Virus record (IMG/VR): IMGVR_UViG_3300020194_001498
Coordinates: 1 to 25,442 of that record
Length of the DNA: 25,442 bases
Source: a virus
Reading direction: 5' to 3' (one strand)
Below are positions 6,111 to 24,271 of the stretch, in pieces; the first letter of the stretch is position 1, and each line of letters starts with the position of its first letter. A program made the translations under genes and the position numbers. The notes below the pieces were generated by a model. That model did no database searches, was not told the DNA's origin, and saw only the letters and a list, made by a program, of their open reading frames with translations.

Positions 6111-6308
6111 ATGGCAATAAAATTTTACAAGAATAAAATAGTGATAGAAGACTTCCAGAATCATTGGAAGGAAGACAGCAAACATGGACACATATTCAAA
6201 TTTGCTCACGGTAAAACATTCAAGGACACGAAACCATTCATCATAGAAGTAAAGCATCCAGACAAAGTGCGTAGTTCTGATGGTAGATGGCACAAAGTTA
6301 AAAAATAA
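6111..6308 (+). CDS. Hypothetical protein, small and basic (65 aa)
   Basis: The compact product is rich in Lys, His and Phe (MAIKFYKNKIVIEDF at the start, RSSDGRWHKVKK at the end). It has no signal peptide or membrane segment and no motif I recognise. Own promoter with no room for an SD; the ATG is probably at the mRNA 5' end. It immediately precedes the tmRNA promoter, whose -35 begins 2 bp after its stop codon. Confidence 0.65.
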   Translation: MAIKFYKNKIVIEDFQNHWKEDSKHGHIFKFAHGKTFKDTKPFIIEVKHPDKVRSSDGRWHKVKK

Positions 6309-6309
6309 C

Positions 6310-6338
6310 TTGACTTTCATTAAAATATCTGTTTAAAT
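6310..6338 (+). promoter_or_regulatory. Promoter of the tmRNA gene
   Basis: TTGACT (6310-6315), 17 bp, TTAAAT (6333-6338). The -35 context TTGACTTTC and the -10 TTAAAT are shared with the promoter at 22380 ahead of the tRNA, so the two RNA genes have like promoters. The same -10 overlaps a TAAATA motif (6334-6339). Confidence 0.55.
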
Positions 6339-6344
6339 ACACGT

Positions 6345-6668
6345 GTAGACGATGAAGTGTGTGTAATACACTTTTGGGACGTCGGGGCAGTACCGACCAC
6401 CTCCACCAAATCAGTCACGCAAAACATATTAGGTAATATGCTTTACGGGGGTGATACAGGTTCGACCAGAGTTTAAAAGCACATGGAGTTTATCAGTCAG
6501 ACCTCTGTAAAGGGTCAATCATAAATGCAAACGCATTTAAACCAGAAGTGACAGTTCCTGTCAGCGTATTCGCTGATGCGGAATTGGTTGCCGCTTAATA
6601 ACCGGCCACTTGGCGGTTGATCTACCGGGCAACAGAACAGATCAGGTGTGGGAGTTTCGGCTCCCACA
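6345..6668 (+). ncRNA. ssrA: Circularly permuted (two-piece) tmRNA
   Basis: Transfer-messenger RNA rescues stalled ribosomes and tags the nascent peptide for proteolysis. The acceptor half comes first: hairpin 6355-6373, T-arm GTCGG/CCGAC (6381-6385, 6393-6397) around loop GGCAGTA, acceptor strand CACCTCC (6398-6404), discriminator A, encoded CCA (6406-6408). After a 38-nt spacer with hairpin CATATT/AATATG (6425-6440), the coding half begins GGGGGTG (6447-6453). This pairs over 7 bp with the upstream CACCTCC, and is followed by the tmRNA signature ATACAGGTTCGACC. The tag reading frame is 6527-6598. Downstream helices are AACCG/CGGTT (6600-6618) and TGATCT/AGATCA (6618-6644). This order matches permuted tmRNA genes of alphaproteobacteria and some cyanobacteria, in which the spacer is removed. 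The exact mature ends are not determined. Confidence 0.93.
6527..6598 (+). other. tmRNA proteolysis-tag reading frame
   Basis: The resume codon is GCA at 6527. The frame reads ANAFKPEV... and ends ...DAELVAA, 23 residues before tandem TAA stops (6596-6601). The hydrophobic -VAA end is what ClpXP/ClpAP-type proteases recognise. The tag is about twice the usual 10-12 residues. Two mutually exclusive hairpins can form within it: TGACAG/CTGTCA (6549-6563) and TCAGCG/CGCTGA (6561-6576). Confidence 0.85.
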
Positions 6669-10456: not shown

Positions 10457-11998
10457 ATGCTATTTGGACTTATTACATTTTTAACCGCACTTACAATATC
10501 AGGTGTAGCAATTTATTATTCAGTCGCAGGACTAGTGGCTATTTTTGCCGCGGCGGCTGTACCAATCATCATAATGGGCACTTCATTAGAAGTGGGCAAA
10601 TTGGTTACAGCAGTGTGGCTCCATAAGAATTGGAAAAAAGCACCTTTATTTCTAAAAACATATCTTTCAATTGCAGTGTTGGTGTTGATGTTGATAACAT
10701 CCATGGGTATATTTGGATTTCTATCCAAAGCACACGTGGATCAAAATTTATCCTCAGACACAGTTACCCAAAGAATTGAAATCATAGACAACAAAATTAA
10801 AGCAGAGAACAGTTACATAGTGCGTCAAAAAGACGTATTAACACGTCTATCAGGGCAAGACAAGGGCAACGAATCTAGATTTAACCAAGACATCCAGATA
10901 GAACAAAAGAAGATAGACGACGCTTACAAACGTCTTGAAGTGTTAGATGCTGATGTTAAAGCATATACAGATCAAGGATCAGGATTCCTAAAAGGTGATA
11001 ATGTTAAAAGAGGATTGGAAGTTCGTAAAAGTCAACAACCTGAAAGAGACAGAATCAATCAACAGATCACAGTAGCACAAGAAAACATCAACAAGTTAAG
11101 AGCTCAAATAAACTCCACATTGGCATCAAACACTGTGGAAATCAAAACCATTGAAAAGAACATATTCGATGCTCAAGGCAGAATTGAAACTCTGATTATA
11201 GAACAAGAACCATTAAAAGGACAGTTAATGAAACTGGAATCAGAAGTGGGTCCGATCAGATACATCGCTGAATTTGTGTATGGAGAACAAGCAGATAGAA
11301 ATCTATTAGAAGAAGCAGTGCGTTGGGTCATCATCACAATCATATTTGTGTTTGATCCATTAGCAGTATTATTGTTGATTGCTTCACAATACACATTCAG
11401 ATGGAGATATATCGACACCCATGGAGAAGACCCAGATGCTCCTAAAACTCCACCAGCACCTAAGACTCCACCTAAAGCACCAACACCTGCACCCATACCA
11501 AGTGGCGGACAGAGTTTGAGTAAAATTGTGGAAAAACAAAAAGAAGTACAGGGTAAAACTAAAGCAATAAAGTTAAGTGATATCGCCAAAAAAAAAGAAG
11601 TGAAAACCACACCTAGTCCAGAAGTAATACAAAATTTTAAAGCACGGGAACAAAAAGAAGCAGAAGATTTAAGACGTATATCTTACGAAGCCAAAGAAGA
11701 ACATTGGCAAAAATCCAAAACTGCTTGGAAAGAGGCTAATCCATCTGACACCATTCATAGACACAAAGAGCTATACATCAAGGGTGCTATTGACACATTA
11801 CCTTGGGAAAACTTTGAAATAAAAGAAGAACAACCACCAATGCCGTTGGATCAATGGAACAAAATGATCGAAGAAGCAGAAAAACAAGCACAAATTGAAA
11901 AAGAAGAACAAGCAAAAAAAAAGACTTCAGCATACATAATCAGAGAGCAGGATCAACAAGTCAAAAAGAAGATTCAGGAAGAATCAAACCAAACTTAA
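10457..11998 (+). CDS. Large membrane/coiled-coil protein of unknown function
   Basis: A 513-aa protein with three hydrophobic segments near the N-terminus (about residues 4-20, 22-42, 68-88). A long helical, Gln/Lys/Glu-rich coiled-coil region follows (about 95-260), then a fourth hydrophobic segment near 287-308 (VIITIIFVFDPLAVLLLIA). The tail is proline-rich (PPAPKTPPKAPTPAPIP) and then basic/acidic helical. The layout suggests an inner-membrane scaffold or a periplasm-spanning structure; I cannot name a family. The annotated frame ends 24 codons after an A9 run, whereas the -1 frame stays open to 12078 and looks coding (separate entry). Confidence 0.8.
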   Translation: MLFGLITFLTALTISGVAIYYSVAGLVAIFAAAAVPIIIMGTSLEVGKLVTAVWLHKNWKKAPLFLKTYLSIAVLVLMLITSMGIFGFLSKAHVDQNLSSDTVTQRIEIIDNKIKAENSYIVRQKDVLTRLSGQDKGNESRFNQDIQIEQKKIDDAYKRLEVLDADVKAYTDQGSGFLKGDNVKRGLEVRKSQQPERDRINQQITVAQENINKLRAQINSTLASNTVEIKTIEKNIFDAQGRIETLIIEQEPLKGQLMKLESEVGPIRYIAEFVYGEQADRNLLEEAVRWVIITIIFVFDPLAVLLLIASQYTFRWRYIDTHGEDPDAPKTPPAPKTPPKAPTPAPIPSGGQSLSKIVEKQKEVQGKTKAIKLSDIAKKKEVKTTPSPEVIQNFKAREQKEAEDLRRISYEAKEEHWQKSKTAWKEANPSDTIHRHKELYIKGAIDTLPWENFEIKEEQPPMPLDQWNKMIEEAEKQAQIEKEEQAKKKTSAYIIREQDQQVKKKIQEESNQT

Positions 11999-12094: not shown

Positions 12095-12493
12095 ATGCCC
12101 AAATTAAATTTGATCACAGAACCAGACAAACTATACAATGAAAATCGCAGTATTCTATTGATTACTCCGTCAATTAGTTGCAAAGCAGATTTCAATGAAA
12201 GAGCCAAACAGTTCGAAAATGATGTTAACGTGTATATGTTCGAAACAAATGATCCAGACGAGCAACAAAATTTAAAATGGTTAATTGAAGTAGCAAACAC
12301 TGTTGACCTAATAATATTTGATATGAATGGTATATTCAAAGACAGGTGGTTAATAGGTTACATCCTTAATAAATCAAACTGTTTTTACTTATGGAGTGGC
12401 AGTGACGCTTTTGAATTTCATTTGATTAACAGCAATAGAATTTATGATTTAGAATTTTTACCAAACAAAATTAAAGAACTGGAGAACAAATAA
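12095..12493 (+). CDS. Hypothetical protein (132 aa), Rossmann-like
   Basis: Alternating strand/helix pattern: RSILLITPSI, NVYMFETNDP, then the helix NLKWLIEVANTVDLIIFDMN and YILNKSNCFYLWSG. This suggests a small alpha/beta fold of the kind seen in 2-deoxyribosyltransferase or TIR-like domains, with no catalytic residue set I can verify. Its stop overlaps the next ATG by 1 nt (TAATG). It follows the membrane-protein gene closely and is probably co-transcribed with the oxygenase that follows. Confidence 0.7.
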   Translation: MPKLNLITEPDKLYNENRSILLITPSISCKADFNERAKQFENDVNVYMFETNDPDEQQNLKWLIEVANTVDLIIFDMNGIFKDRWLIGYILNKSNCFYLWSGSDAFEFHLINSNRIYDLEFLPNKIKELENK

Positions 12494-13137
12494 TGCCAAT
12501 GAAAGCCGACCTGTGGTTTCCAACAGTGATATGGAACGATGAACTAAAACATATCAACAATTCAGAACTTAAAGAATATGTTGAAAAATTAAACAAAGAT
12601 GACACAGGCAAAGTGGCTTCGAACTATGGTGGTTGGCAAAGTAAATCTTATGATATTCTATCTGAAAGACCAATTGCTATTGAAAGATTTATTCAGTCCA
12701 TTCAAAAGAATATAAACGATTGTACTAAAATGGCAGGCTTAATGGATTTACAAATAAGTGATTATTGGTGGAACATTAATAAAAAAGGCGACTATAATCA
12801 TCTACACGATCACAGAGACAGTATTTTAAGTGGAGTGTACTATATCGATATTCCAGATGAAAATATGGGTAACATTCATTTTGAAAGAGAAGATAACGCT
12901 GAGTTCTTTTTACCTAGAGTCATGCCAAAAAGAAATCATATTTCGGCTGTGAGAGCAACCTATAAACCGATGTCAGGGGGTCTACTGATTTTTCCTAGTT
13001 GGGTTAGACATTCTGTAGATGGAAACAAATCAGATAAACCAAGAATATCAATGAGTTTCAACACATCAATTGCAATGACTCCTGACAATGACGAACTGGC
13101 AAAATTGAATGGGTTTCCGCCATTGACAGGCGAATAA
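12493..13137 (+). CDS. 2OG-Fe(II) oxygenase, PF13759/TIGR02466-like
   Basis: The 214-aa protein shows the double-stranded beta-helix metal triad: H107-x-D109 in HDHRDSILSGVYYIDIP, then H173 in FPSWVRHSV, and the 2-oxoglutarate-binding R184 in PRISMSFN. The SGVYY segment and the FPSW..H..RIS.SFN spacing are typical of the putative 2OG oxygenases that are frequent in marine T4-like phages. The substrate is unknown. Its 3' end contains the promoter for the next gene (13123-13151). Confidence 0.9.
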   Translation: MPMKADLWFPTVIWNDELKHINNSELKEYVEKLNKDDTGKVASNYGGWQSKSYDILSERPIAIERFIQSIQKNINDCTKMAGLMDLQISDYWWNINKKGDYNHLHDHRDSILSGVYYIDIPDENMGNIHFEREDNAEFFLPRVMPKRNHISAVRATYKPMSGGLLIFPSWVRHSVDGNKSDKPRISMSFNTSIAMTPDNDELAKLNGFPPLTGE

Positions 13138-13992: not shown

Positions 13993-14433
13993 ATGAAAAA
14001 TAATCTATCTATATTCAATCAATTAAGACCAGTAACTGTAGGATTCGACTCTATGTTCGATAGATTCGAAAAGATGTTTGATGAGGATTTTATCAACATT
14101 CCAACAGTAAACTATCCACCATACAATATTGTAAAAACAGGTGATTACACCTACGATATTGAACTTGCATTGGCTGGATTTAACAAGAAGGACATTGAAG
14201 TGGAGTATGCAGATAACCTACTTACAATCAAGTCTGTTAAATCTGAAGAAGCGAAAGCAGAAACAGATGGTGTCATTCACAGAGGTATCTCTAAGAGACA
14301 ATTTACTAGATCATTTACAATAGCAGATGATGTAGAAGTTAGAGGTGCTGAACTGAAAGATGGTCTTTTAAAAGTTTCTTTGGAAAGAATTATTCCAGAG
14401 AGCAAGAAGGCAAGATCAATCGAAGTTAAGTAA
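13993..14433 (+). CDS. hsp20: Small heat-shock protein, Hsp20/alpha-crystallin family
   Basis: A 146-aa ATP-independent chaperone that holds unfolding proteins. The alpha-crystallin domain spans about residues 38-135: an opening strand (TYDIELALAGFNKKDIEVEY), LLTIK, the FTRSFTI segment, and the conserved GLLKVSLERIIPE close. A strong SD (AAAAAGGAG) precedes the start. Hsp20 genes are a near-constant feature of marine T4-like phages. It heads the cluster hsp20-clpS-HO-pcyX. Confidence 0.95.
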   Translation: MKNNLSIFNQLRPVTVGFDSMFDRFEKMFDEDFINIPTVNYPPYNIVKTGDYTYDIELALAGFNKKDIEVEYADNLLTIKSVKSEEAKAETDGVIHRGISKRQFTRSFTIADDVEVRGAELKDGLLKVSLERIIPESKKARSIEVK

Positions 14434-14447
14434 CTTTAGAAAGAATA

Positions 14448-14473
14448 TGGGTAGGGTGGCAACATCCTACCCA
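14448..14473 (+). other. Hairpin between hsp20 and clpS
   Basis: TGGGTAGG (14448-14455), 10-nt loop, CCTACCCA (14466-14473): a perfect 8-bp stem without a T-run. An in-frame ATG at 14447 lies at its base, which argues for the later clpS start at 14486. It may be a weak terminator or a processing site. Confidence 0.5.
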
Positions 14474-14485
14474 ATAAATAAAATT

Positions 14486-14791
14486 ATGACCACAGAACTA
14501 GACGTTAAAGTAGACTCCAAAGTAAAACAAATAGTTAAGACTCCAAAAAATTATCACGTAATTCTTTTGAATGACGAAGTTACACCTATGGATTTTGTGG
14601 TGGAACTTTTAGTAAAAATATTTAGACACACTCCAGAAACAGCCAAAGACCTTACACTGAAGATCCACAAGGAAGGATCAGCCATTGTAGGAACGTATAC
14701 ATATGAATTAGCAGAACAAAAAGGCACTGAGGCAACACAAGAAAGCAGAGATAGAGGATTTCCTTTACAAGTTAAAGTAGAACAGGAATGA
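14486..14791 (+). CDS. clpS: ClpS, N-end-rule adaptor of the Clp protease
   Basis: A 101-aa adaptor that delivers proteins with N-terminal Phe, Leu, Tyr or Trp to ClpAP and alters the fate of ssrA-tagged substrates. The motif LLNDEVTPMDFV gives N29-D30 of the N-degron pocket (E. coli N34-D35), M35 as gatekeeper, and H61 (IHKEGSAIVGTYT) matching E. coli H66. The binding pocket therefore looks intact. The family length is about 105 aa. Start chosen past the hairpin at 14448. Stop overlaps the next start as ATGA. Confidence 0.92.
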   Translation: MTTELDVKVDSKVKQIVKTPKNYHVILLNDEVTPMDFVVELLVKIFRHTPETAKDLTLKIHKEGSAIVGTYTYELAEQKGTEATQESRDRGFPLQVKVEQE

Positions 14792-14931
14792 AAACTTATT
14801 ACTTTTGGGTGAGATTACCCAACAAAGGACCAATGAAAGTTGCTGAACAAGGAAGAACTGCCAGCGAAGCAAAACAGATTGTGGAGGCAAGATTTCCTGA
14901 AGCGTCAGTGATGTTTGCAGAAGGATTTTAA
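14788..14931 (+). CDS. Small conserved phage protein (47 aa)
   Basis: ATG at 14788 overlaps the clpS TGA. The product begins MKTYYFWVRLPNKGPMKVAE and continues with SEAKQIVEARFPEASVMF. It resembles small phage proteins with the pattern 'strand - basic loop - A.EA.QI.EARYP', seen in cyanophage and other phage genomes, of unknown role. It is tightly wedged between clpS and heme oxygenase and is likely translationally coupled to both. Confidence 0.6.
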   Translation: MKTYYFWVRLPNKGPMKVAEQGRTASEAKQIVEARFPEASVMFAEGF

Positions 14932-14932
14932 T

Positions 14933-15484
14933 ATGGGACTTAAAGAATTAACCAAAGAAGTACACCAAGACGCAGAACGTCAAGAGTTTGTTAAAACATT
15001 GATGAGTGGCAATATGAGTGACGAAATGTATGCAGAGTTCTTGTACAATCAACACGCCATATACAATCTATTAGAAGCCTGTGCTATGAGTCATGGCTTA
15101 TTGAACGATTTCCCACAAATTAGAAGAGCACCAAGCATATTGGCAGACTTTCAAGAACTTTGGAAAAAAGAAGATATGCCTAAGATAACTGAGAGCACTG
15201 AACGTTATATCAAACATATGTACACTATAAAAGAAGACCCAAAAAAACTTATGGCACACATCTACGTGAGACACATGGGAGATTTGAGTGGTGGGCAAAT
15301 GATTAAAAAGAGAGCACCAGGATCAGGCACAATGTATGACTTTGGACGAGCCGATGTAAAAGAAATAAAAGAAAGAATTAGAAGTAAAACAGACGACAGC
15401 ATGGCTGATGAGGCTAGACTGTGTTTTGGTTATGCCGCTGAATTATTCAAAGAATTACACAATGCCCAGAAAAAAGAAGTTTAA
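14933..15484 (+). CDS. ho1: Heme oxygenase (biliverdin-producing)
   Basis: Opens heme to biliverdin IXalpha, CO and Fe2+. The ATG at 14933 follows AAGGA (14921-14925); a TTG at 14915 is less likely. The proximal heme ligand is H11 in LTKEVHQDAE, matching the family's LK..T..vH..AE start. The distal-helix signature is HIYVRHMGDLSGGQMIKK (cf. YVRYLGDLSGGQ in HO-1). At 183 aa it is shorter than typical cyanobacterial HO (about 240) but the core is complete. The gene overlaps the next small gene, and a bilin reductase follows. Confidence 0.93.
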   Translation: MGLKELTKEVHQDAERQEFVKTLMSGNMSDEMYAEFLYNQHAIYNLLEACAMSHGLLNDFPQIRRAPSILADFQELWKKEDMPKITESTERYIKHMYTIKEDPKKLMAHIYVRHMGDLSGGQMIKKRAPGSGTMYDFGRADVKEIKERIRSKTDDSMADEARLCFGYAAELFKELHNAQKKEV

Positions 15485-15683
15485 AGACTTTCCAGGAAAC
15501 CTGATCAAAATAAAAGTTTTAGAAGACGAAATTAAATTTTTTAAAAGTTTAATTCAAGAAACCGATACCGGACATATTTACACCACAATAGACAGTTTAG
15601 AAACAAGAGTTAAACAACTAAAAGGAATACCCACTGACGATCCTTTTATACAAGATAGAGAAAGTGACGTAAACGATATATGA
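15462..15683 (+). CDS. Small charged protein between heme oxygenase and bilin reductase (73 aa)
   Basis: Start set at ATG 15462, overlapping the heme oxygenase end by 23 nt. The basic opening (MPRKKKFKDF) is followed by a helical/charged region (LEDEIKFFKSLIQET, SLETRVKQL) that could form a short coiled coil. No known family. Its position inside the bilin operon suggests a link to HO or the bilin reductase, for example as a partner, but nothing in the sequence shows this. Stop and pcyX start overlap as ATGA. Confidence 0.6.
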   Translation: MPRKKKFKDFPGNLIKIKVLEDEIKFFKSLIQETDTGHIYTTIDSLETRVKQLKGIPTDDPFIQDRESDVNDI

Positions 15684-16375
15684 GTTTTATTTGGGACACC
15701 CTGATAGATTGTAAAGAACAAATTATTGCCGAGTTCGATAAACGCGGTGAAGAGATTCAAGAAGAAGGTATGAGTCAATTCAATCAACCAGACAATGGTT
15801 GGATTAACAGAGTATGGCGCACCAAGGATTGTAGACGTTGTCACATAGATGTAGTAGATGCTAGAGAATCCAAATCACTGTGGATGATGCACGTGTGTAT
15901 CTTTCCTAACCTAGACAACAACGGACCCATATATGGCTTTGATGTTATAGCAGGTAAAAACAAAATGACCGGCGCTTTTCATGATTTTTCAAAAAGTTCT
16001 GGTGGAGAAGAACATCCACTTATAGATTGGTTTAAAGAAGCAGTAGAAGAATTTATACCTAGCAAGAAACGTGAATTACCTCAATGGGCCTTGAATATTT
16101 TCAGTGGTAGTATGGTAGCGGCAGGTAATGTTAAGACTGATGAAGAAGCCAAAGCCATTGTGGACTTGGCAATTAGCAATCTAAAAGTGTATTTTGATTC
16201 TATTGGACAATACAATAACACGGCTAAACCAGAAGATACTGTAGAAGCACAAAACTATTATTGCCATAATCAACAGCAAAACCCACACACACCAAGGGTA
16301 ATGAAATCGCTTGGATTGGCTGAAAAAGATGTGGAAATCTTTTGCACTGATGCACTGTTCCCAAAAATACAATAA
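15680..16375 (+). CDS. pcyX: Ferredoxin-dependent bilin reductase, PcyX-like
   Basis: The 231-aa protein fits the ferredoxin-dependent bilin reductase family. The active-site pair is H71 in HVCIFP and D88 in PIYGFDVI, spaced 17 residues apart exactly like H88-D105 of PcyA. The C-terminal QNYYCHNQQQNPHTPRVM...TDALFP block matches the family's end. Such enzymes reduce biliverdin with ferredoxin; the phage PcyX type gives phycoerythrobilin in a four-electron reaction, whereas PcyA gives phycocyanobilin. It sits just after heme oxygenase, so the pair makes bilin from heme. PcyX versus PcyA cannot be settled without a tree or an assay. Confidence 0.85.
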   Translation: MSFIWDTLIDCKEQIIAEFDKRGEEIQEEGMSQFNQPDNGWINRVWRTKDCRRCHIDVVDARESKSLWMMHVCIFPNLDNNGPIYGFDVIAGKNKMTGAFHDFSKSSGGEEHPLIDWFKEAVEEFIPSKKRELPQWALNIFSGSMVAAGNVKTDEEAKAIVDLAISNLKVYFDSIGQYNNTAKPEDTVEAQNYYCHNQQQNPHTPRVMKSLGLAEKDVEIFCTDALFPKIQ

Positions 16376-16423: not shown

Positions 16424-16594
16424 ATGATACATTCAATTAAAAATGTAATGACAAAAATAACTGCAATGAAACAAAAAAGCCTTGAGATAGAAAAAGCAAT
16501 AAAAGAAGGCAAGCATCCAGAAGAAATTAAGTTTATGACTGATGAATTAAAACAATTGGGCCTTGAAGTTGCTAGTATAAGAGTACTTAGATGA
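16424..16594 (+). CDS. Small coiled-coil-like protein (56 aa)
   Basis: Starts at ATG 16424 directly downstream of the promoter. Rich in Lys, Glu, Met and Ile with helix-heptad character (MTKITAMKQKSLEIEKAIKE, then FMTDELKQLGLEV). No domain recognised. Its TGA overlaps the next gene's ATG (ATGA), indicating coupling to the metalloprotease-like gene. Confidence 0.6.
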   Translation: MIHSIKNVMTKITAMKQKSLEIEKAIKEGKHPEEIKFMTDELKQLGLEVASIRVLR

Positions 16595-17070
16595 TTATAA
16601 ACATTGAAGGCGGCAACAAGCAATTAAGAGAATTATCTGAAAGTATTGCTGAATTTTGTGCCAGCAAGTTATTTTCTAAAAAATTATCCCACACACTTAC
16701 TTTAGATATAGAACTATCAAAAACTTTACTCAAAGAAGATGGTATACTTGGTGAAATAGATTTTGATGATTCTAATCATAGACCTAAAGAGTTTACCATG
16801 ACTGTGGATTGCTCCGTATCAAAAAGAAAAATAATGGAAACCATTGCTCATGAAATGGTACATCTGAAGCAATATGCCAAAGGTGAGTTGGTGGACCTTG
16901 AACGATGCGGATCAACAACTTGGCAAAAAACTAAAATTAACTCCGAAACCAACTACTGGGATCTGCCCTGGGAAGTTGAAGCACACGGAAAAGAATTGGG
17001 ACTTTTTGTGAGATGGGCGGAACACAATCACCTGGGTAATCAGGACTGGACTCAAGAAAAGTACGCATAG
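16591..17070 (+). CDS. Minimal zinc metallopeptidase, HExxH family
   Basis: The 159-aa protein has the zinc motif H87-E88-M-V-H91 (ETIAHEMVHLKQYAKGEL) and a further acidic/His stretch PWEVEAHGKELGLF (E128, E130, H132) that could supply the third ligand. It resembles SprT-like or minigluzincin proteins. Biological role unknown; candidates include cleavage of host or DNA-crosslinked proteins. It is one of two HExxH proteins 560 bp apart, the other being at 17154. Confidence 0.75.
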   Translation: MIINIEGGNKQLRELSESIAEFCASKLFSKKLSHTLTLDIELSKTLLKEDGILGEIDFDDSNHRPKEFTMTVDCSVSKRKIMETIAHEMVHLKQYAKGELVDLERCGSTTWQKTKINSETNYWDLPWEVEAHGKELGLFVRWAEHNHLGNQDWTQEKYA

Positions 17071-17084
17071 AACTCCAAAATAAT

Positions 17085-17112
17085 TTGAATTAACTGCTAC
17101 TATAACTAATAT
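17085..17112 (+). promoter_or_regulatory. Possible promoter of the SprT-like gene
   Basis: TTGAAT (17085-17090), 16 bp, TAATAT (17107-17112), with CTATA/TATAG inverted-repeat arms over the -10. A TAAATA motif is at 17143-17148, 11 nt before ATG 17154. Confidence 0.35.
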
Positions 17113-17153
17113 AGTGCTGTGTTTAACCACGAGCTCAGTCGTTAAATATTAGT

Positions 17154-17606
17154 ATGAAAAGTCGCAGATACTACAAGCAGAAGATTCGCAAAGCATTAAC
17201 TGTGAGAGGCAATGAAAAAAACTATTACCCAACACAGGAGAGTGCTGTTAGATGGTTTCACATCTTGAATAGAAGTCTGTTTGAAAATAAACTTAAACCT
17301 ATCAAAATATCAATAAGACGAATGAAAGGTTGTATGGGTGTACTGCTGATAGACTGGGACGCAAGAAAAACTCCCAAAGGCACCTGTGATCAAAGCAAAC
17401 TTCCTTATCACAATCCAACAATACATTGGGATATGACACTTCATTCCAAATTCAAAACATGGAGAGACTTTTTAGAAACATTGGCACATGAAATGGTGCA
17501 TCAATATCAAGTGGAAGTAATCAAAGATCCTTACGCAAATCACAATAAAAATTTCTATGCTTGGCGAGAAAAGTTTGCTAGGTATGGATTAAAAATCTGT
17601 TATTAA
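17154..17606 (+). CDS. SprT-like zinc metalloprotein
   Basis: The 150-aa protein has the zinc motif H112-E113-M-V-H116 (LETLAHEMVHQYQVEV) and a downstream H130 in NHNKNFYAWREKF, the expected third ligand of SprT/Spartan-type proteases. The C-terminal zinc ribbon of host SprT is absent. In the SprT family such proteases cut DNA-protein crosslinks, so a DNA-repair or host-takeover role is possible. It converges with the minus-strand gene 18 bp downstream. Confidence 0.85.
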   Translation: MKSRRYYKQKIRKALTVRGNEKNYYPTQESAVRWFHILNRSLFENKLKPIKISIRRMKGCMGVLLIDWDARKTPKGTCDQSKLPYHNPTIHWDMTLHSKFKTWRDFLETLAHEMVHQYQVEVIKDPYANHNKNFYAWREKFARYGLKICY

Positions 17607-18119: not shown

Positions 18120-18335
18120 ATGAACACTTGGTTGTATTGGGCAGTACCCGAGAACAGAGCAACTCATTACTTGGTATTGATGTGTATGGCATTATTTGTA
18201 TTGCCTTACATCCTTGGTATCAGATATACTTTACTTGGATATTTGTTTAATATGATTTGGTTAGATTTAATTTATTATTGGACTTATAAGTTTTCTGAAA
18301 AGAACAAAAAGGATAAAGATGACAACACATTTTGA
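18120..18335 (+). CDS. Small membrane protein, two hydrophobic segments (71 aa)
   Basis: Begins 1 nt after the bS21 stop. Two hydrophobic stretches, about residues 17-34 (YLVLMCMALFVLPYILGI) and 37-56 (TLLGYLFNMIWLDLIYYW), then a charged tail (KFSEKNKKDKDDN). This is a hairpin-like inner-membrane protein of unknown function, likely co-expressed with bS21. The end overlaps the next gene by 17 nt. Confidence 0.65.
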   Translation: MNTWLYWAVPENRATHYLVLMCMALFVLPYILGIRYTLLGYLFNMIWLDLIYYWTYKFSEKNKKDKDDNTF

Positions 18336-18552
18336 TGACAAGTGTATAATCGAGTGTACCAACAATGATAGAAAAGTTGAGGCAGAAGTGATGTCTTTTA
18401 AAGAGGGAGATTTTTTATCTGTGAGTATTCAACGTTTTATCAAAATCAATATGCAGTACAATGAAAGAAAAGGTGTGTATATTGGTAATCAGGGAGGACT
18501 CGAATTCATTACCGATGGTCCACAAAAATACGTAAGTAACGATACAAGATAA
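18319..18552 (+). CDS. Hypothetical protein (77 aa), beta-rich
   Basis: The 77-aa soluble product has alternating strand character (CIIECTNNDRKVEAEVMSF, LSVSIQRFIKINMQY, KGVYIGNQGGLEF). No signal peptide, membrane segment or known motif. It overlaps the upstream membrane-protein gene and ends 3 nt before the dehydrogenase gene, so it is probably translated from the same mRNA. Confidence 0.6.
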   Translation: MTTHFDDKCIIECTNNDRKVEAEVMSFKEGDFLSVSIQRFIKINMQYNERKGVYIGNQGGLEFITDGPQKYVSNDTR

Positions 18553-18555
18553 CTT

Positions 18556-19587
18556 ATGAAAAAAATATGTGTAATAGGTGCCGGTAAAATCGGCAGAACC
18601 ATTAATGCTTACCTTAAACTGCAAGGTCATGAAGTGTTTTTGGTTGACTCAAATCCTAATATTAAAAACGCAATTCATATTGATGCTAATGATGAACAGG
18701 CAGTTAGCGAATTTATTAAGGATAAAGATATCGTAGTTTCATCAGCACCATACAATGTGAACATCACTATCGCTGACAGTTGTGCCGCTCATGATGTGGC
18801 ATACTTTGACCTCACAGAAGATGTGGAAGTTTGTCAGCACATTAAGAATTTAAAAACAGACACCTTCATGATGCCACAATGCGGATTGGCTCCAGGTGCT
18901 GTGAATATCATTGCCGCTGATCTGATCAAACAATTCAGCAGAGTAGACAAAGTCAAAATGAGAGTGGGTGCATTGCCCATGTACACTGCCAACTCAATGG
19001 CATACTACTTGACTTGGTCCACATCAGGATTAATCAATGAATATGTGAATGAAGTGGATGTCATTTCAGGTGGCAAACACATCAAAGCACAACCGTTGGA
19101 TGGATTAGAAACTATCTATATAGATGGCAACAGATATGAAGCATTCAACACTTCAGGCGGTGTAGCAACCATGTGTGAAACATTCAAAGACAAAGTGTAT
19201 AACATGAGTTACAAAACAATAAGATATCCAGGTCATCACGACTCTATGAAATTCTTATTGGAAGATTTAAATTTAAAACACAACAAGGAAAAATTTATCG
19301 ATCTGTTTGATCAAGAAGTGCCTTACACAACCAAAGATGTTGTGGTGATGTTTATCACTGTGATAGGACAGAAAGACGGAATACTCCAAGAACTAACATA
19401 TCATAAAAAAATCTATGGAGATAAAGCACTTAACGGAATTCAAAAAACAACTGCCTCTGGCGTGTGTGCTGTGGTAGAAGCCTATGCAGAAGGCAAACTA
19501 TCTGGCAAAGGATTTCAATGCCAAGAAGATGTTCCTTTTGAAGTGTTCACAAGCAATAAATTTGGGAAATTATATGAACAGGAATGA
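18556..19587 (+). CDS. Saccharopine-dehydrogenase-family enzyme, lysine 6-dehydrogenase-like
   Basis: A 343-aa NAD(P)-dependent oxidoreductase. The Rossmann motif is IGAGKIGRTI (G8-A-G10-x-x-G13). Conserved blocks MPQCGLAPGAVNI (about 106-118), NSMAYYLTWSTSGLINEY (about 146-163), EAFNTSGGVATMCETF (about 195-210) and YKTIRYPGH (about 219-227) follow the lysine 6-dehydrogenase pattern. That enzyme oxidises the epsilon-amine of lysine to 2-aminoadipate semialdehyde with release of ammonia. The length fits lysine 6-dehydrogenase (about 360-385 aa) better than saccharopine dehydrogenases (440+ aa). The following ALDH7 gene would use its product. A saccharopine-cleaving activity remains possible. 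Confidence 0.8.
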   Translation: MKKICVIGAGKIGRTINAYLKLQGHEVFLVDSNPNIKNAIHIDANDEQAVSEFIKDKDIVVSSAPYNVNITIADSCAAHDVAYFDLTEDVEVCQHIKNLKTDTFMMPQCGLAPGAVNIIAADLIKQFSRVDKVKMRVGALPMYTANSMAYYLTWSTSGLINEYVNEVDVISGGKHIKAQPLDGLETIYIDGNRYEAFNTSGGVATMCETFKDKVYNMSYKTIRYPGHHDSMKFLLEDLNLKHNKEKFIDLFDQEVPYTTKDVVVMFITVIGQKDGILQELTYHKKIYGDKALNGIQKTTASGVCAVVEAYAEGKLSGKGFQCQEDVPFEVFTSNKFGKLYEQE

Positions 19588-20953
19588 TTACGATACAGTT
19601 ATAACAAAAGCAATCACAATTCAAAAACAATGGCGTCAGGTGCCTGCACCTAAAAGAGGTGAATTGATTAGAGTGTTTGGTAACCATTTGAGACAAGATA
19701 TAGAAACAATTGGTTCAGCCATAATGAAAGATGCCAAAAAGATTCATGCAGAAGCAATTGGCGAAGTTCAAGAAGCAGTTGATATGTGTGATTTTGCTGT
19801 GGGACTTTCAAGACAGTTGTATGGATTAACCATTCAGAGTGAAAGACCAGAACACAAACTACAAGAAGTTTATAATCCATTAGGAGTTGTTGGTGTGATT
19901 TCAGCATTCAATTTTCCTTGTGCCGTTTGGGCATGGAATCATTGTTTAGCCATTGTGTGCGGAAACAGTGTGGTATGGAAAGGTTCTCCTAAATCAGCCC
20001 AGGTGACAACTGCTTGTAAAACAGCATGGGACAAAGCAGTGGATGAATGTTTGCCCAATACCGAATACAAAGATTTACTACAAATAGTTGACGGAGATAA
20101 AGAACAAGCAGAATGGATGGCAGATGATGTCAGAATCAATCTATTAAGTGCTACAGGTTCAACTGAGATGGGCAAAGCATTAGCACCGCGAGTGTCAGCA
20201 AGAATGGGCAGAGCATTGTATGAGTTAGGTGGCAACAATGGAATGATTGTGTCCAAACACGCCAACATAGATTTGGCTGTGAGAGGTATTGTGTTTGGTG
20301 CAGTTGGTACAGCAGGACAAAGATGTACCACATTGAGAAGATTAATTGTGCATGAATCTGTGTATGATGAATTGATGTCTAAATTGAAACCAGCATATGA
20401 AAGTTTACCTGTGGGAGATAATTTCAAACCAGAAACATTGGTTGGACCTCTAATCAATTCTGTTGCAGTGGACAAAATGCAGAGTGCTCTCAGCACCGCT
20501 AGAACAAAAGGATACACAGTGCATGGTGGCACAGTGATTGACGAAGCACAGTGTTTGGTTACTCCAGCCATTGTGGAAGCCACAGAACAGTGTGATCTAG
20601 TGAAGACAGAAACATTTGCACCTATTTTGTATGTGTTAAAATATTCAGAATTAGCAGAGGCTATAAATATTCATAACGCAGTTCCGCAGGGATTGAGTTC
20701 TTGTATATTCACAGACAACATACAAGAAGCAGAAACTTTCACATCAGCAGTAGGTTCTGATTGTGGTATAGTGAATGTGAACATTGGACCAAGTGGTGCG
20801 GAAATTGGCGGAGCCTTTGGTGGTGAAAAAGACACTGGTGGTGGACGTGAGTCTGGTTCTGATGCATGGAAACAGTATATGCGTAGAAGCACAGTCACAA
20901 TCAACTACGGTAAGTCTTTACCATTGGCCCAAGGTATTAAGTTTGGAGATTAA
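19574..20953 (+). CDS. ALDH7-type aldehyde dehydrogenase (2-aminoadipate semialdehyde dehydrogenase)
   Basis: The ATG at 19574 overlaps the dehydrogenase end by 14 nt, giving 459 aa. Catalytic residues: N113 (SAFNFPCAVWAWN), E217 (YELGGNN), nucleophile C251 (GTAGQRCTTLRRL). The C-terminal half is strikingly like ALDH7A1 (antiquitin): TETFAPILYV, QGLSS.IFT, GSDCGIVNVNI, SGAEIGGAFGGEKDTGGG, QYMRRSTVTINY, LPLAQGIKF. ALDH7 oxidises 2-aminoadipate 6-semialdehyde, in equilibrium with piperideine-6-carboxylate, to 2-aminoadipate with NAD(P)+. The enzyme is shorter at the N-terminus than the usual ~500 aa but its core appears complete. Confidence 0.93.
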   Translation: MNRNDYDTVITKAITIQKQWRQVPAPKRGELIRVFGNHLRQDIETIGSAIMKDAKKIHAEAIGEVQEAVDMCDFAVGLSRQLYGLTIQSERPEHKLQEVYNPLGVVGVISAFNFPCAVWAWNHCLAIVCGNSVVWKGSPKSAQVTTACKTAWDKAVDECLPNTEYKDLLQIVDGDKEQAEWMADDVRINLLSATGSTEMGKALAPRVSARMGRALYELGGNNGMIVSKHANIDLAVRGIVFGAVGTAGQRCTTLRRLIVHESVYDELMSKLKPAYESLPVGDNFKPETLVGPLINSVAVDKMQSALSTARTKGYTVHGGTVIDEAQCLVTPAIVEATEQCDLVKTETFAPILYVLKYSELAEAINIHNAVPQGLSSCIFTDNIQEAETFTSAVGSDCGIVNVNIGPSGAEIGGAFGGEKDTGGGRESGSDAWKQYMRRSTVTINYGKSLPLAQGIKFGD

Positions 20954-20956
20954 TAT

Positions 20957-21550
20957 ATGCCTAAAGGTTTTTACATAGACCCCGAAATCAAATTCGATGT
21001 TGAGCAATTACAATCAGCATTGGCAGAAGTTGATTCAAGAGTAGCACGACAATCACCGCTGGGTGAAAGAGACATCAATGCTATTTGCTTAAATCAGATT
21101 CCTGGAGATCCCAATTCAATCACAGGCGGCAATGTGCGTGGACTGTTTTGGACTCGTCCGGATCACACAGGTGTAGAAGTTCAACGTGAACAACCAATCG
21201 ATGAAGCAAAATATTCTGAATTTGTTAAACTGTTTGAAGATACCTATTTCAAAGAAGTGTATGATACACTTACCAAAAAATACCAACTTGGTAGAGTTAG
21301 GTTACTTTGGAAATTGCCAAGAACCACTTTGAGCTGGCATAGAGATCCAGAACCAAGATTACACATACCCATCATTACCAATCCAGGTGCTCATATGATT
21401 ATTGAATCAGTAAATCATCATATGCCAGCAGACGGTGGAGTATGGATTACCAATAATACACGTTATCACAATGCCTTCAACGGTGGAGAAGAAGACAGAG
21501 TTCACTTGGTGGCTACGGTTTTGAATTGTGATATGAGTATTTTTGAATAA
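20957..21550 (+). CDS. Fe(II)/2-oxoglutarate hydroxylase, Asp/Asn beta-hydroxylase type
   Basis: The 197-aa protein has H128-R-D130 in LSWHRDPEPRLHIPI, the second-shell R134/H136, the distal H171 in TRYHNAFNGG and R181 in EEDRVHLVATV. This spacing is that of the aspartyl/asparaginyl beta-hydroxylase family (PF05118), which includes amino-acid hydroxylases such as proline cis-4-hydroxylase. It begins 3 nt after the ALDH stop, so it may act on lysine or 2-aminoadipate, but that is inference; it could also modify a protein. Confidence 0.8.
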   Translation: MPKGFYIDPEIKFDVEQLQSALAEVDSRVARQSPLGERDINAICLNQIPGDPNSITGGNVRGLFWTRPDHTGVEVQREQPIDEAKYSEFVKLFEDTYFKEVYDTLTKKYQLGRVRLLWKLPRTTLSWHRDPEPRLHIPIITNPGAHMIIESVNHHMPADGGVWITNNTRYHNAFNGGEEDRVHLVATVLNCDMSIFE

Positions 21551-21568: not shown

Positions 21569-21597
21569 TTGACTATTTCCTGTAAAGAATGTATATT
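21569..21597 (+). promoter_or_regulatory. Sigma70-type promoter
   Basis: TTGACT (21569-21574), 17 bp, TATATT (21592-21597), immediately followed by ATG codons at 21598 and 21607. Transcription should begin near 21604. Confidence 0.7.
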
Positions 21598-21687
21598 ATG
21601 TTTAATATGTTAAAAACAATAAAAAATATGTTTTCATCTGTATCGAACATTGAGCAGACGAAGACAGCAGAACAAGGAGTTAGCGTA

Positions 21688-21951
21688 ATGGCTAAAAGAA
21701 AAACTATGACTATACAAAAAAGAGTAGAGACTGCTCTATTAAACGGCGAAGCATTAACATCAAGTGCTATTAAAAATAGATTTGGTGCTGGTAATCCAGG
21801 TGCTGTAATTCAAGCATTAAGATTCAAAGGTTTACCTGTGTTCTTAAACACTAACAAAAGAACTGGTGTTAAAGTATACAGAACAGGTAAAGCACCTAGA
21901 GCGGTTGTAGGTTTAGGATACAAAGCATTAGCAAAAGGTATCTCTCTATAA
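21688..21951 (+). CDS. Small basic protein, possible winged-helix DNA-binding (87 aa)
   Basis: Start chosen at ATG 21688 because AAGGAG (21674-21679) lies 8 nt upstream. The same frame is open from 21607, adding about 27 residues (MLKTIKNMFSSVSN...) that could be a leaderless alternative. The domain has an N-terminal helix (TIQKRVETALLNGEALTSS), a helix-turn-helix-like segment (SAIKNRFGAGNPGAVIQAL), then a strand-turn-strand wing (GLPVFLNTNKRTGVKVYRTG). This suggests nucleic-acid binding. A strong terminator follows. No family is known to me. Confidence 0.65.
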   Translation: MAKRKTMTIQKRVETALLNGEALTSSAIKNRFGAGNPGAVIQALRFKGLPVFLNTNKRTGVKVYRTGKAPRAVVGLGYKALAKGISL

Positions 21952-23116: not shown

Positions 23117-24271
23117 ATGATGACAACAAAAAGTCATGCTCAGACAATAAACGAGCAATACAATAAAACTGAATCCAATTTTATCAGTCTAAATGACAGA
23201 TTAAAAGAAGCATTGGATCTATCACCTATGTACAACAACACACTCACAGCAGTGGTTGATGAATTCAAAAGAAGAAATACTCAATGGAAAAAATTTTCCG
23301 ATCTTCATCTTTGCGAAGCAGTTCAAGTAGCAATGAAAGATATATGGATAGATACCACAATGCAGAGAAATGTGAACATGGAACACATCACAGATATTTT
23401 ACAATACTTCAGCGAAACAATGGTAATGCCCATACAGGTGTACAAAGATGAAGATAGATACATTGCCTGGGACGGACAACACACTGCCATAGTATTATAC
23501 ATTTTGCTGACTAGAGTGTTTGGTGAAAGACTGGCAGACGCTATTGTGCCTGTAGTGGTATATTCAACCAAACAGAAAACAGAGATACGTAGAAACTTTA
23601 TCTTGTTGAATGGTAATGCCAAGAAACCTTTGGAGTTTATAGACATATACAAACAGCAGGTGTATGGTGTTAAGGTAGATGGATCCAATGATCCTGAATG
23701 GACAGCAACCGCACAGAAGAATGATTACTTCGCAGAAGCAGGATTATTTGTAACCAACAATAAATTTGGTGATGAAGATCAACCTGGTGCTTTCACACTG
23801 TTGGCAGATACATTGATGAGTAAATCATTGAAGACAAGAAAAGATCCTGAAGTGGCAAAAATGTTTGCTCAATACTGGACCTATCTCAATCAAAAACGTC
23901 CTGTGGATCCCAAGGAGGCTAGGCAATTGTTTGAATATTTTAATCTATGCCATGAACAAGACATCAAAGTGGATGAGCAATATCTTCTGGATTTTGTGGC
24001 ATTCACCAAAGAATACTTTGAAGCAGACTTCAGTCCCAATGGACCTTTTTGGCAAAAAGTCAGTCAAGCATACACCAACTGGTATGTGAAAAAGAATGAA
24101 GGCACAGATGATTTGGACAAAGATGGTAACATCATTGTGAGAGGGTTCACAACAGAGATGAGATGTGGACTGCCGTTCATAATTGCTCAAATCAAAAAGA
24201 GCACCAAACTGAAAGCACCCAAGTACACACCCAACAATGGTTTCGCAGTTAGTAAGGATATGTTATGGTAA
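23117..24271 (+). CDS. ParB/DUF262-like protein
   Basis: The 384-aa protein carries a ParB-type N-terminal core: MPIQVYKDEDRYIAWDGQHT (D119-G-Q-H122) followed by a helix, then IVPVVVY and RRNFILLNGNAKKPL. The DGQH box is like the DGQ/HR box of ParB, DndB and DUF262 proteins, which can bind NTP or DNA. The remaining ~200 residues are helical, with no motif I recognise. The start is ATGATG behind AAGGAG (23103-23108). It overlaps an HNH nuclease gene by 7 nt. Exact family uncertain. Confidence 0.7.
   Translation: MMTTKSHAQTINEQYNKTESNFISLNDRLKEALDLSPMYNNTLTAVVDEFKRRNTQWKKFSDLHLCEAVQVAMKDIWIDTTMQRNVNMEHITDILQYFSETMVMPIQVYKDEDRYIAWDGQHTAIVLYILLTRVFGERLADAIVPVVVYSTKQKTEIRRNFILLNGNAKKPLEFIDIYKQQVYGVKVDGSNDPEWTATAQKNDYFAEAGLFVTNNKFGDEDQPGAFTLLADTLMSKSLKTRKDPEVAKMFAQYWTYLNQKRPVDPKEARQLFEYFNLCHEQDIKVDEQYLLDFVAFTKEYFEADFSPNGPFWQKVSQAYTNWYVKKNEGTDDLDKDGNIIVRGFTTEMRCGLPFIIAQIKKSTKLKAPKYTPNNGFAVSKDMLW

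Follow-up and report, generated by a model that had tools for sequence, protein, structure and literature searches.

A 25,442-base stretch of DNA, the entire IMG/VR virus record IMGVR_UViG_3300020194_001498 (hereafter the window; the remainder of the phage lies outside view), carries three plus-strand genes that form a tight unit. The first gene (18556..19587, +) encodes a lysine 6-dehydrogenase-like enzyme of 343 residues, designated enzyme 1, with the Pfam domains Sacchrp_dh_NADP and Sacchrp_dh_C. The second gene (19574..20953, +) encodes a 459-residue ALDH7 resembling piperideine-6-carboxylate (P6C) and 2-aminoadipate semialdehyde dehydrogenases, and the third (20957..21550, +) a 197-residue hydroxylase dependent on 2-oxoglutarate and iron [2OG-Fe(II)] that belongs to the Asp_Arg_Hydrox family. 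The mechanically called open reading frame (ORF) of ALDH7 starts at 19484, and the ATG codon common to its relatives is located at 19574. From this codon, the ALDH7 gene overlaps the dehydrogenase gene by 14 nucleotides, and the hydroxylase gene starts 3 nucleotides past the ALDH7 stop codon. An earlier note on this DNA had described an overlap of the first two genes and the 3-nucleotide spacing of the third, and its observation was confirmed by the coordinates and by the Pfam assignments. We propose, with a probability of about 0.68, that these genes form an auxiliary metabolic operon whose function is to oxidize lysine, a prediction based on homology and gene context.

Identity of the two dehydrogenases

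Enzyme 1 scored above the Pfam cut-offs for PF16653 (Sacchrp_dh_C; 4.4e-19, 70.1 bits, cut-off 31) and PF03435 (6e-09, 36.8 bits, cut-off 25.1). In a phmmer search of the PDB, the L-lysine dehydrogenase of Pyrococcus horikoshii (3abi) ranked first (4e-20), followed by 3ic5, a 118-residue fragment labelled 'putative saccharopine dehydrogenase' (5e-10), and by yeast saccharopine dehydrogenase (8e-05). A profile built from 12 phage sequences returned 3abi (7e-26), the 3ic5-type protein (7e-17), and human aminoadipate semialdehyde synthase (4e-07). The AlphaFold model, also built from 12 sequences, had a pLDDT of 72.6 with weak stretches between residues 144 and 257; Foldseek matched it to 3abi (3.1e-23), carboxyspermidine dehydrogenase (4.6e-17), and saccharopine dehydrogenase (1.1e-16). 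The earlier note had held that placement of enzyme 1 in a different branch of the saccharopine family, with no lysine activity, would refute its proposal; the sequence, profile, and fold searches of the PDB all put the Pyrococcus lysine dehydrogenase (LysDH) first.

Enzyme 1 is only about 22% identical to 3abi, its best match by fold and by sequence, but the two proteins are of the same size (343 versus 349 residues), saccharopine dehydrogenases being longer (435–449 residues). Neither the extended catalytic domain of ~440 residues nor the best match to a verified enzyme that would mark a saccharopine dehydrogenase was found. Based on match ranking and size, identification of enzyme 1 as a saccharopine or carboxyspermidine dehydrogenase was considered less likely. 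Homospermidine synthase was also discarded: three proteins that we take to be such synthases, named by eye from their resemblance and used as the tree outgroup, were located far from enzyme 1. Motifs near residues 83–89, 107–114, 136–141, 150–163, 195–202, and 219–227 were common to enzyme 1 and to its homologues from SAR86, rhizobia, and Opitutae. Together, these results support the conclusion that enzyme 1 is lysine 6-dehydrogenase-like rather than like verified saccharopine dehydrogenases, its activity being predicted.

The second protein matched PF00171 (2.2e-110), and its best NCBIfam model was NF050084 (L-piperidine-6-carboxylate dehydrogenase; 697.3 bits versus 238.4 bits for the next model). 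Its PDB matches were Pcd and antiquitin (2jg7). Residues C251, E217, and N113, presumably the catalytic Cys, Glu, and Asn, were invariant in a 16-row alignment. For the substrate, contacts between human ALDH7A1 and 2-aminoadipate, as given in PMC11362210 (Glu121, Arg301, Thr303, Gly461, Ala462, Phe168, Trp175, and Phe468), were carried over by hand to the window protein through the alignment with antiquitin 2jg7. All eight of these contacts were identical (E67, R250, T252, G408, A409, F114, W121, and F415, respectively). Six were invariant in the 16-row alignment and the other two nearly so, E67 being lost in the distant row L028. The aldehyde dehydrogenases of records G043 and G044 were excluded from the ALDH7 set as distant proteins (297 and 313 bits; 33% identity in L159). 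Match ranking, gene context, and the retained ALDH7 residues thus support the proposal of the earlier note that the first two enzymes would convert lysine into 2-aminoadipate.

Conservation in phages and bacterial relatives

Scanning viral contigs for related ALDH7 genes yielded 40 contigs, in which the neighbors were then called by tblastn. The dehydrogenase gene was directly upstream of the ALDH7 gene in 21 of the 40 contigs (clipped by the contig end in one), six contigs being too short. The hydroxylase gene was directly downstream in 28 contigs, missing from 10, and cut in two. Spacing was measured in 19 contigs (the window and 18 others), all containing the three genes. The dehydrogenase and ALDH7 genes overlapped by 4, 8, or 14 nucleotides in 13 contigs and were separated by a gap of 208 nucleotides in the remaining six, and the spacing between the ALDH7 and hydroxylase genes ranged from –2 to 20 nucleotides in all 19, indicating that the arrangement is beyond chance. 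The ratio of nonsynonymous to synonymous substitution rates (dN/dS) was 0.04–0.14 in 13 of the 15 comparisons of the three window genes with those of five relatives, dS being saturated in the other two. Thus, the cassette genes are under purifying selection. Among large records, G001 (148 kb) and G002 (124 kb) contained the full cassette. The dehydrogenase and ALDH7 genes were both present, unlinked, in G004 (328 kb) and G005 (124 kb), G004 harboring all three genes in this unlinked form. The hydroxylase and dehydrogenase genes were also found unlinked in a 71-kb and a 70-kb record. Conservation of the pair, for which the earlier note had recommended a check, was therefore observed in 21 of the 40 ALDH7 contigs as linked genes and in G004 and G005 as unlinked genes.

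Both functions were also predicted in an unrelated phage. At a threshold of 1e-5, one of 50,697 named phage records matched enzyme 1 (27% identity): the 636-kb uncultured phage LR756504.1, whose record carries no annotation. The same record provided the best ALDH7 match (53%), located ~75 kb from its dehydrogenase gene. Its 372-residue dehydrogenase (L220:1501-2619) matched 3abi at 4.8e-69, followed by saccharopine reductase at 4.6e-16, and its ALDH7 (L221:1354-2868) reached 800.3 bits, above the P6C dehydrogenase cut-off of 730. Since the 3abi-like dehydrogenase of LR756504.1 differs in type from that of the window, two types of dehydrogenase are paired with ALDH7 in phages, and the recruitment of these two predicted steps by LR756504.1 appears to have been independent.

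The hydroxylase matched PF05118 (2.2e-08, 34.6 bits, cut-off 22.6) over positions 69–154 of the 157-position model. Residues H128, D130, H171, and R181 were invariant in 16 rows; we take them to be the His/Asp/His and Arg motif of the family. The best Foldseek match of its structural model (pLDDT 82.9) was a nucleoside-antibiotic hydroxylase (7v4m; 7v4m/7v4f; 7e-11). Next came pipecolate- and proline-bound proline cis-4-hydroxylase (~1e-05, a weak match at 14% identity), and then AspH (8e-05). Scanning with the hydroxylase yielded 54 loci. Eleven of the 16 hydroxylase records tested (hydroxylase 76–83% identical), including records of 235 kb and 158 kb, lacked both the dehydrogenase and ALDH7 genes. 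Of the other five, two contained a cut ALDH7 end, one an ALDH7 gene 18 kb away, and two distant versions of all three genes. Pelagibacter phage Mosig encodes a hydroxylase (~56%), with no match to the dehydrogenase or to ALDH7 in these searches. The hydroxylase is therefore linked to ALDH7, yet it does not depend on ALDH7 and is not obligate in the cassette. Since the hydroxylase is equally conserved in records devoid of the other two genes, it probably acts on a separate compound rather than on anything that the cassette produces.

Scanning genome contigs with enzyme 1 yielded 22 loci. ALDH7 was beside or near the enzyme 1 homologue in 15 of these and none was noticed in seven, these counts being minima since the longest-ORF rule hid genes in GC-rich loci (in L066, L181, and L183, even the dehydrogenase gene was hidden). 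In all 10 SAR86 loci, the ALDH7 gene adjoined the dehydrogenase gene, in the order ALDH7 then dehydrogenase. The other ALDH7-linked loci were L053, a contig of a metagenome-assembled genome (MAG) displaying the phage gene order, L073, and the Opitutae loci L064, L069, and L074. A 480-residue ORF beside one Opitutae homologue had no Pfam or NCBIfam match and was dropped. Among 385 alphaproteobacterial genomes, 71 matched enzyme 1 at an E value of 0.001 or better; the best 15 of these loci, with flanks of ~1.5 kb, contained ALDH7 in at least three cases and a divergent Lrp/AsnC regulator in at least five. Plasmid matches to enzyme 1 comprised 83 records, 38 of them from Rhizobium, the best at about 44%. 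On Agrobacterium fabrum pRiA4b, the homologue (42%) has a complete gene set for lysine catabolism in its vicinity: a P6C dehydrogenase (810.6 bits, cut-off 730), HglS (750.8 bits, cut-off 550), an aminotransferase, and an FAD/FeS protein that we interpret as D-2-hydroxyglutarate dehydrogenase, together with an Lrp regulator.

Phylogenetic trees were built for both enzymes. The dehydrogenase tree contained 67 rows, the window being represented by the identical row L002; other identical rows, rows of fewer than 250 residues, and some specified loci were omitted. In this tree, 25 phage rows and L053 formed one clade (97/95) that was sister to SAR86 (98/98). Three additional phage groups (L101, L104, and L154/L159) were outside the main clade, which reflects either repeated acquisition by phages or a blurring due to long branches, which the program flags. 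The ALDH7 tree contained 51 rows and was rooted on eight chosen bacterial rows (row L169, tagged 'cell', is phage G001); the phage rows, SAR86, and L053 formed one clade (100/100). The gene pairs of the phages and of SAR86 therefore have a common ancestry, and the transfer may have occurred in either direction. In both trees, the phage clade also included the dehydrogenase-ALDH7 pair of L053, a contig of 7.7 kb from a gammaproteobacterial MAG.

Proposed pathway and competing explanations

By homology, enzyme 1 would deaminate L-lysine at the epsilon position with NAD(P)+, yielding 2-aminoadipate semialdehyde, ammonium, and NAD(P)H. The semialdehyde would cyclize into P6C. ALDH7, in agreement with its retained substrate residues, would then oxidize the semialdehyde into 2-aminoadipate with production of a second NAD(P)H. 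We consider this chemistry to be likely. When HglS, the aminotransferase, the FAD/FeS protein, and the Lrp regulator of A. fabrum were used as queries, nothing was found in the window or in the 40 phage loci; since the later enzymes were thus not found there, 2-aminoadipate would be passed to host transaminases or kept as a solute. In infected cells, phage synthesis may draw ammonium and reducing power from lysine, taken either from the free pool or from the breakdown of host protein. The nearby gene for the protease adaptor ClpS (14447..14791, +; PF02617, 1.8e-29), and those for ClpP and SbmA/BacA in relatives, fit a supply fed by proteolysis. This salvage of nitrogen and redox equivalents is proposed tentatively, at slightly less than even odds.

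Known systems provide partial counterparts. According to PMC4334477, lysdh (SPO0234) and aasadh (SPO0235) of Ruegeria pomeroyi have consecutive locus numbers and functions annotated from experiments. By description, this system resembles the window in having one gene for each of the two steps predicted to lead from lysine to 2-aminoadipate; the window differs in that its genes are phage genes, overlap, and are followed by a hydroxylase gene. The first two enzymes of the Agrobacterium pRiA4b set are homologous to those of the window; that set differs by a route on to 2-oxoglutarate, in our reading, and by an Lrp/AsnC gene. The SAR86 pair, with a similarly short ALDH7, differs from the main phage type by its reverse gene order and by the lack of a labelled hydroxylase in the 10 loci. 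LR756504.1 has the same two predicted functions but differs by its 3abi-type dehydrogenase (27% identical to enzyme 1) and the distance between its genes. The earlier note knew of no described phage module of this kind. This statement stood for the operon, since no description of a phage LysDH-ALDH7 operon was found in searches of the open-access PMC literature, outside of which most subscription papers fall. However, a gut study lists a lysine-degradation enzyme, alpha-aminoadipate semialdehyde synthase (K14157), among the auxiliary metabolic genes (AMGs) of phages (PMC13205691). The latter is a single KO label of the saccharopine route, whereas the operon described here is conserved and is predicted to cover two steps of the LysDH route. 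A term search of a review on how viruses affect marine nitrogen cycling (PMC9083009) did not find the word lysine.

Several observations weigh against an operon for lysine oxidation. No LysDH model was among the NCBIfam results for enzyme 1, whose assignment therefore rests on fold, size, and context, and the 3abi fragment sat on a branch of 7.16 in the dehydrogenase tree and was not placeable. The window ALDH7 was below the NF050084 cut-off (697.3 versus 730 bits), its alignment starting at model position 18. Because the cut-off was not reached, we do not claim this protein as an equivalog, only as an enzyme predicted to work like one. The cut-off was also missed by the ALDH7 of SAR86 (677.8), L053 (692.7), L045 (689.4), L028 (611.5), and L054, and passed by that of L043, from the 328-kb phage relative (747.7). 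Regarding gene linkage, 13 of the 40 ALDH7 contigs (13 of the 34 informative ones) lacked the dehydrogenase gene despite ~1 kb or more of upstream sequence, and the 242-kb record G003 harbored ALDH7 and the hydroxylase without the dehydrogenase. Conversely, no ALDH7 was found in any of the nine records (G020 to G028, 24–71 kb) identified by a dehydrogenase gene devoid of an adjacent ALDH7 gene, although these dehydrogenase-only records may be fragments; two of them encode the hydroxylase at 82–84% identity. Among bacteria, Roseicyclus and a Rhodospirillales MAG, with enzyme 1 homologues at 36–37%, lacked ALDH7. Finally, the proximity of ClpS may reflect shared ancestry of the region rather than function.

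The dehydrogenase-only records bear on an alternative in which 2-aminoadipate, or pipecolate formed via host ProC in phages devoid of ALDH7, would act as a compatible solute that helps the infected cell to stay functional, nitrogen release being secondary. R. pomeroyi is reported to favor the LysDH pathway at high salt with production of the osmolyte aminoadipate (PMC4334477), and LysDH combined with ProC is described as a source of the osmoprotectant pipecolate (PMC6397837). However, no osmotic-stress gene was named among the Pfam-scanned ORFs of the window, where Hsp20, ClpS, and SprT-like genes are near, and the possible fragmentary nature of the dehydrogenase-only records limits their bearing, so that we regard a solute or stress role as unlikely. 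The absence of ALDH7 from some bacteria with 36–37% homologues would also be accounted for if ALDH7 were a general detoxifier of aldehydes and enzyme 1 another dehydrogenase of the saccharopine family, with saccharopine, carboxyspermidine, or a different amine as its substrate. The fold is common to the superfamily, NCBIfam made no LysDH call, and the second-best sequence match, 3ic5, is named a putative saccharopine dehydrogenase. Nonetheless, match ranking and size favor LysDH, the genes found with its homologues in SAR86 and Agrobacterium belong to lysine catabolism, ALDH7 retains the residues binding 2-aminoadipate, and both a clear LysDH and a clear P6C dehydrogenase are encoded by LR756504.1. 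We therefore consider this explanation to be improbable.

The hydroxylase raises the possibility that the cassette makes a modified amino acid, the first two enzymes producing P6C or 2-aminoadipate and the hydroxylase modifying that product or pipecolate. Its adjacency in 28 of the 38 informative ALDH7 contigs, purifying selection, the co-occurrence of unlinked genes in the 328-kb, 71-kb, and 70-kb records, and top fold matches to enzymes of small-molecule pathways, ahead of AspH, are in favor of such a role. It is nevertheless rather improbable, in view of the 11 of 16 hydroxylase records (and, by these searches, phage Mosig) lacking the other two genes, of a conservation as high outside the cassette as inside, and of the weakness of the proline hydroxylase match. 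Equally doubtful is a three-enzyme phage pathway in which lysine from ClpS-directed degradation of host protein would be turned into a hydroxylated amino acid, along with ammonium and reducing power, in hosts devoid of the pathway, and which unrelated large phages would have acquired on two or more occasions; if true, it would represent a virus-encoded salvage line from protein to nitrogen and a new metabolite. If lysine oxidation itself is correct, some large phages would oxidize an amino acid while infecting, probably fed by proteolysis, unrelated phages would have taken up these two steps by means of distinct types of dehydrogenase, and an amino-acid catabolic branch would be added to viral effects on nitrogen flow.

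Neighborhood, phage type, and host

The cassette genes are conserved in virus records beside phage genes and have cellular homologues, as expected for phage AMGs. Neighbors were compared in 35 loci (the window and 34 others), anchored on ALDH7 or, where it was lacking, on the hydroxylase; many of these loci are related and some are short, so that the following counts are not independent events. In 23 loci, a ClpS homologue was located at most 9 kb from the anchor gene, and in 21 an Hsp20 homologue was near the cassette. In the window, the Hsp20 and ClpS genes are adjacent (13993-14791). A small ORF of 77 residues just upstream of the cassette (18319..18552, +) had a homologue in 13 of the 35 loci, and an ORF of 120 residues downstream (21589..21951, +; phrog_4973) in 18. 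In large-phage relatives (L025, L039-L046, and L050), ALDH7 was surrounded by varying sets of SufB, a SufS-like aminotransferase, DUF59, SbmA/BacA, ClpP, ClpS, and DnaK-like proteins; the DUF59 protein is of the FeS-assembly type, and we read the class-V aminotransferase near ALDH7 in other lineages as SufS. A defense role was discarded, as a PADLOC search returned no match for seven proteins including those of the cassette. Promoter-like sites in the window were at chance level (16 found, 17.8 expected), and terminator-like sites numbered nine for 4.0 expected (sd 2.0).

The ribonucleotide reductase is about 69% identical to those of Synechococcus phages, a type that we take to be T4-like. 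The gp23 capsid gene was found in four of the 21 records tested (G003, G004, G034, and G042), of which G003 and G004 also carry ALDH7, and was not found in G000, G001, and G002. A permuted tmRNA gene of the alphaproteobacterial type is located at 6306-6646 (RF01849, 101.8 bits). The 148-kb record G001 likewise harbors an alpha-type permuted tmRNA, and its predicted tag also contains ADAELVAA. Together, the ribonucleotide reductase, gp23, and the tmRNA suggest that the source phages are T4-like phages of alphaproteobacteria, and their kin (SAR86 and the phages of Synechococcus and Pelagibacter) indicate a probable marine origin. The phage tmRNA matched 12 of the 385 alphaproteobacterial genomes, over 34–54 bases only, and 10 of these genomes were at most 1.7 Mb. 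Eleven of the 12 had neither a P6C dehydrogenase above the cut-off nor a LysDH match, and one had both. This is suggestive of a streamlined host devoid of the lysine pathway and too weak to support such a claim.

Other genes of the window were noted. A heme oxygenase gene is followed by a gene for a PcyA-like ferredoxin-dependent bilin reductase (14915-16375; PF05996, 2.9e-16). The latter protein scored 82.8 bits with the NCBIfam phycocyanobilin:ferredoxin oxidoreductase model, below the cut-off of 206, and presumably resembles the phage PcyX type. A protein of 384 residues (23117-24271) had a weak, sub-cut-off match to DndB and no match among the 50,697 phage records, and the sole Pfam match of a 513-residue protein (10457-11998) was a sub-threshold tetraspanin. 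Two SprT-like genes, the first below the Pfam cut-off, are in tandem at 16591-17606, and a second 2OG-Fe(II) oxygenase (PF13759, phrog_81) is encoded at 12493-13137.

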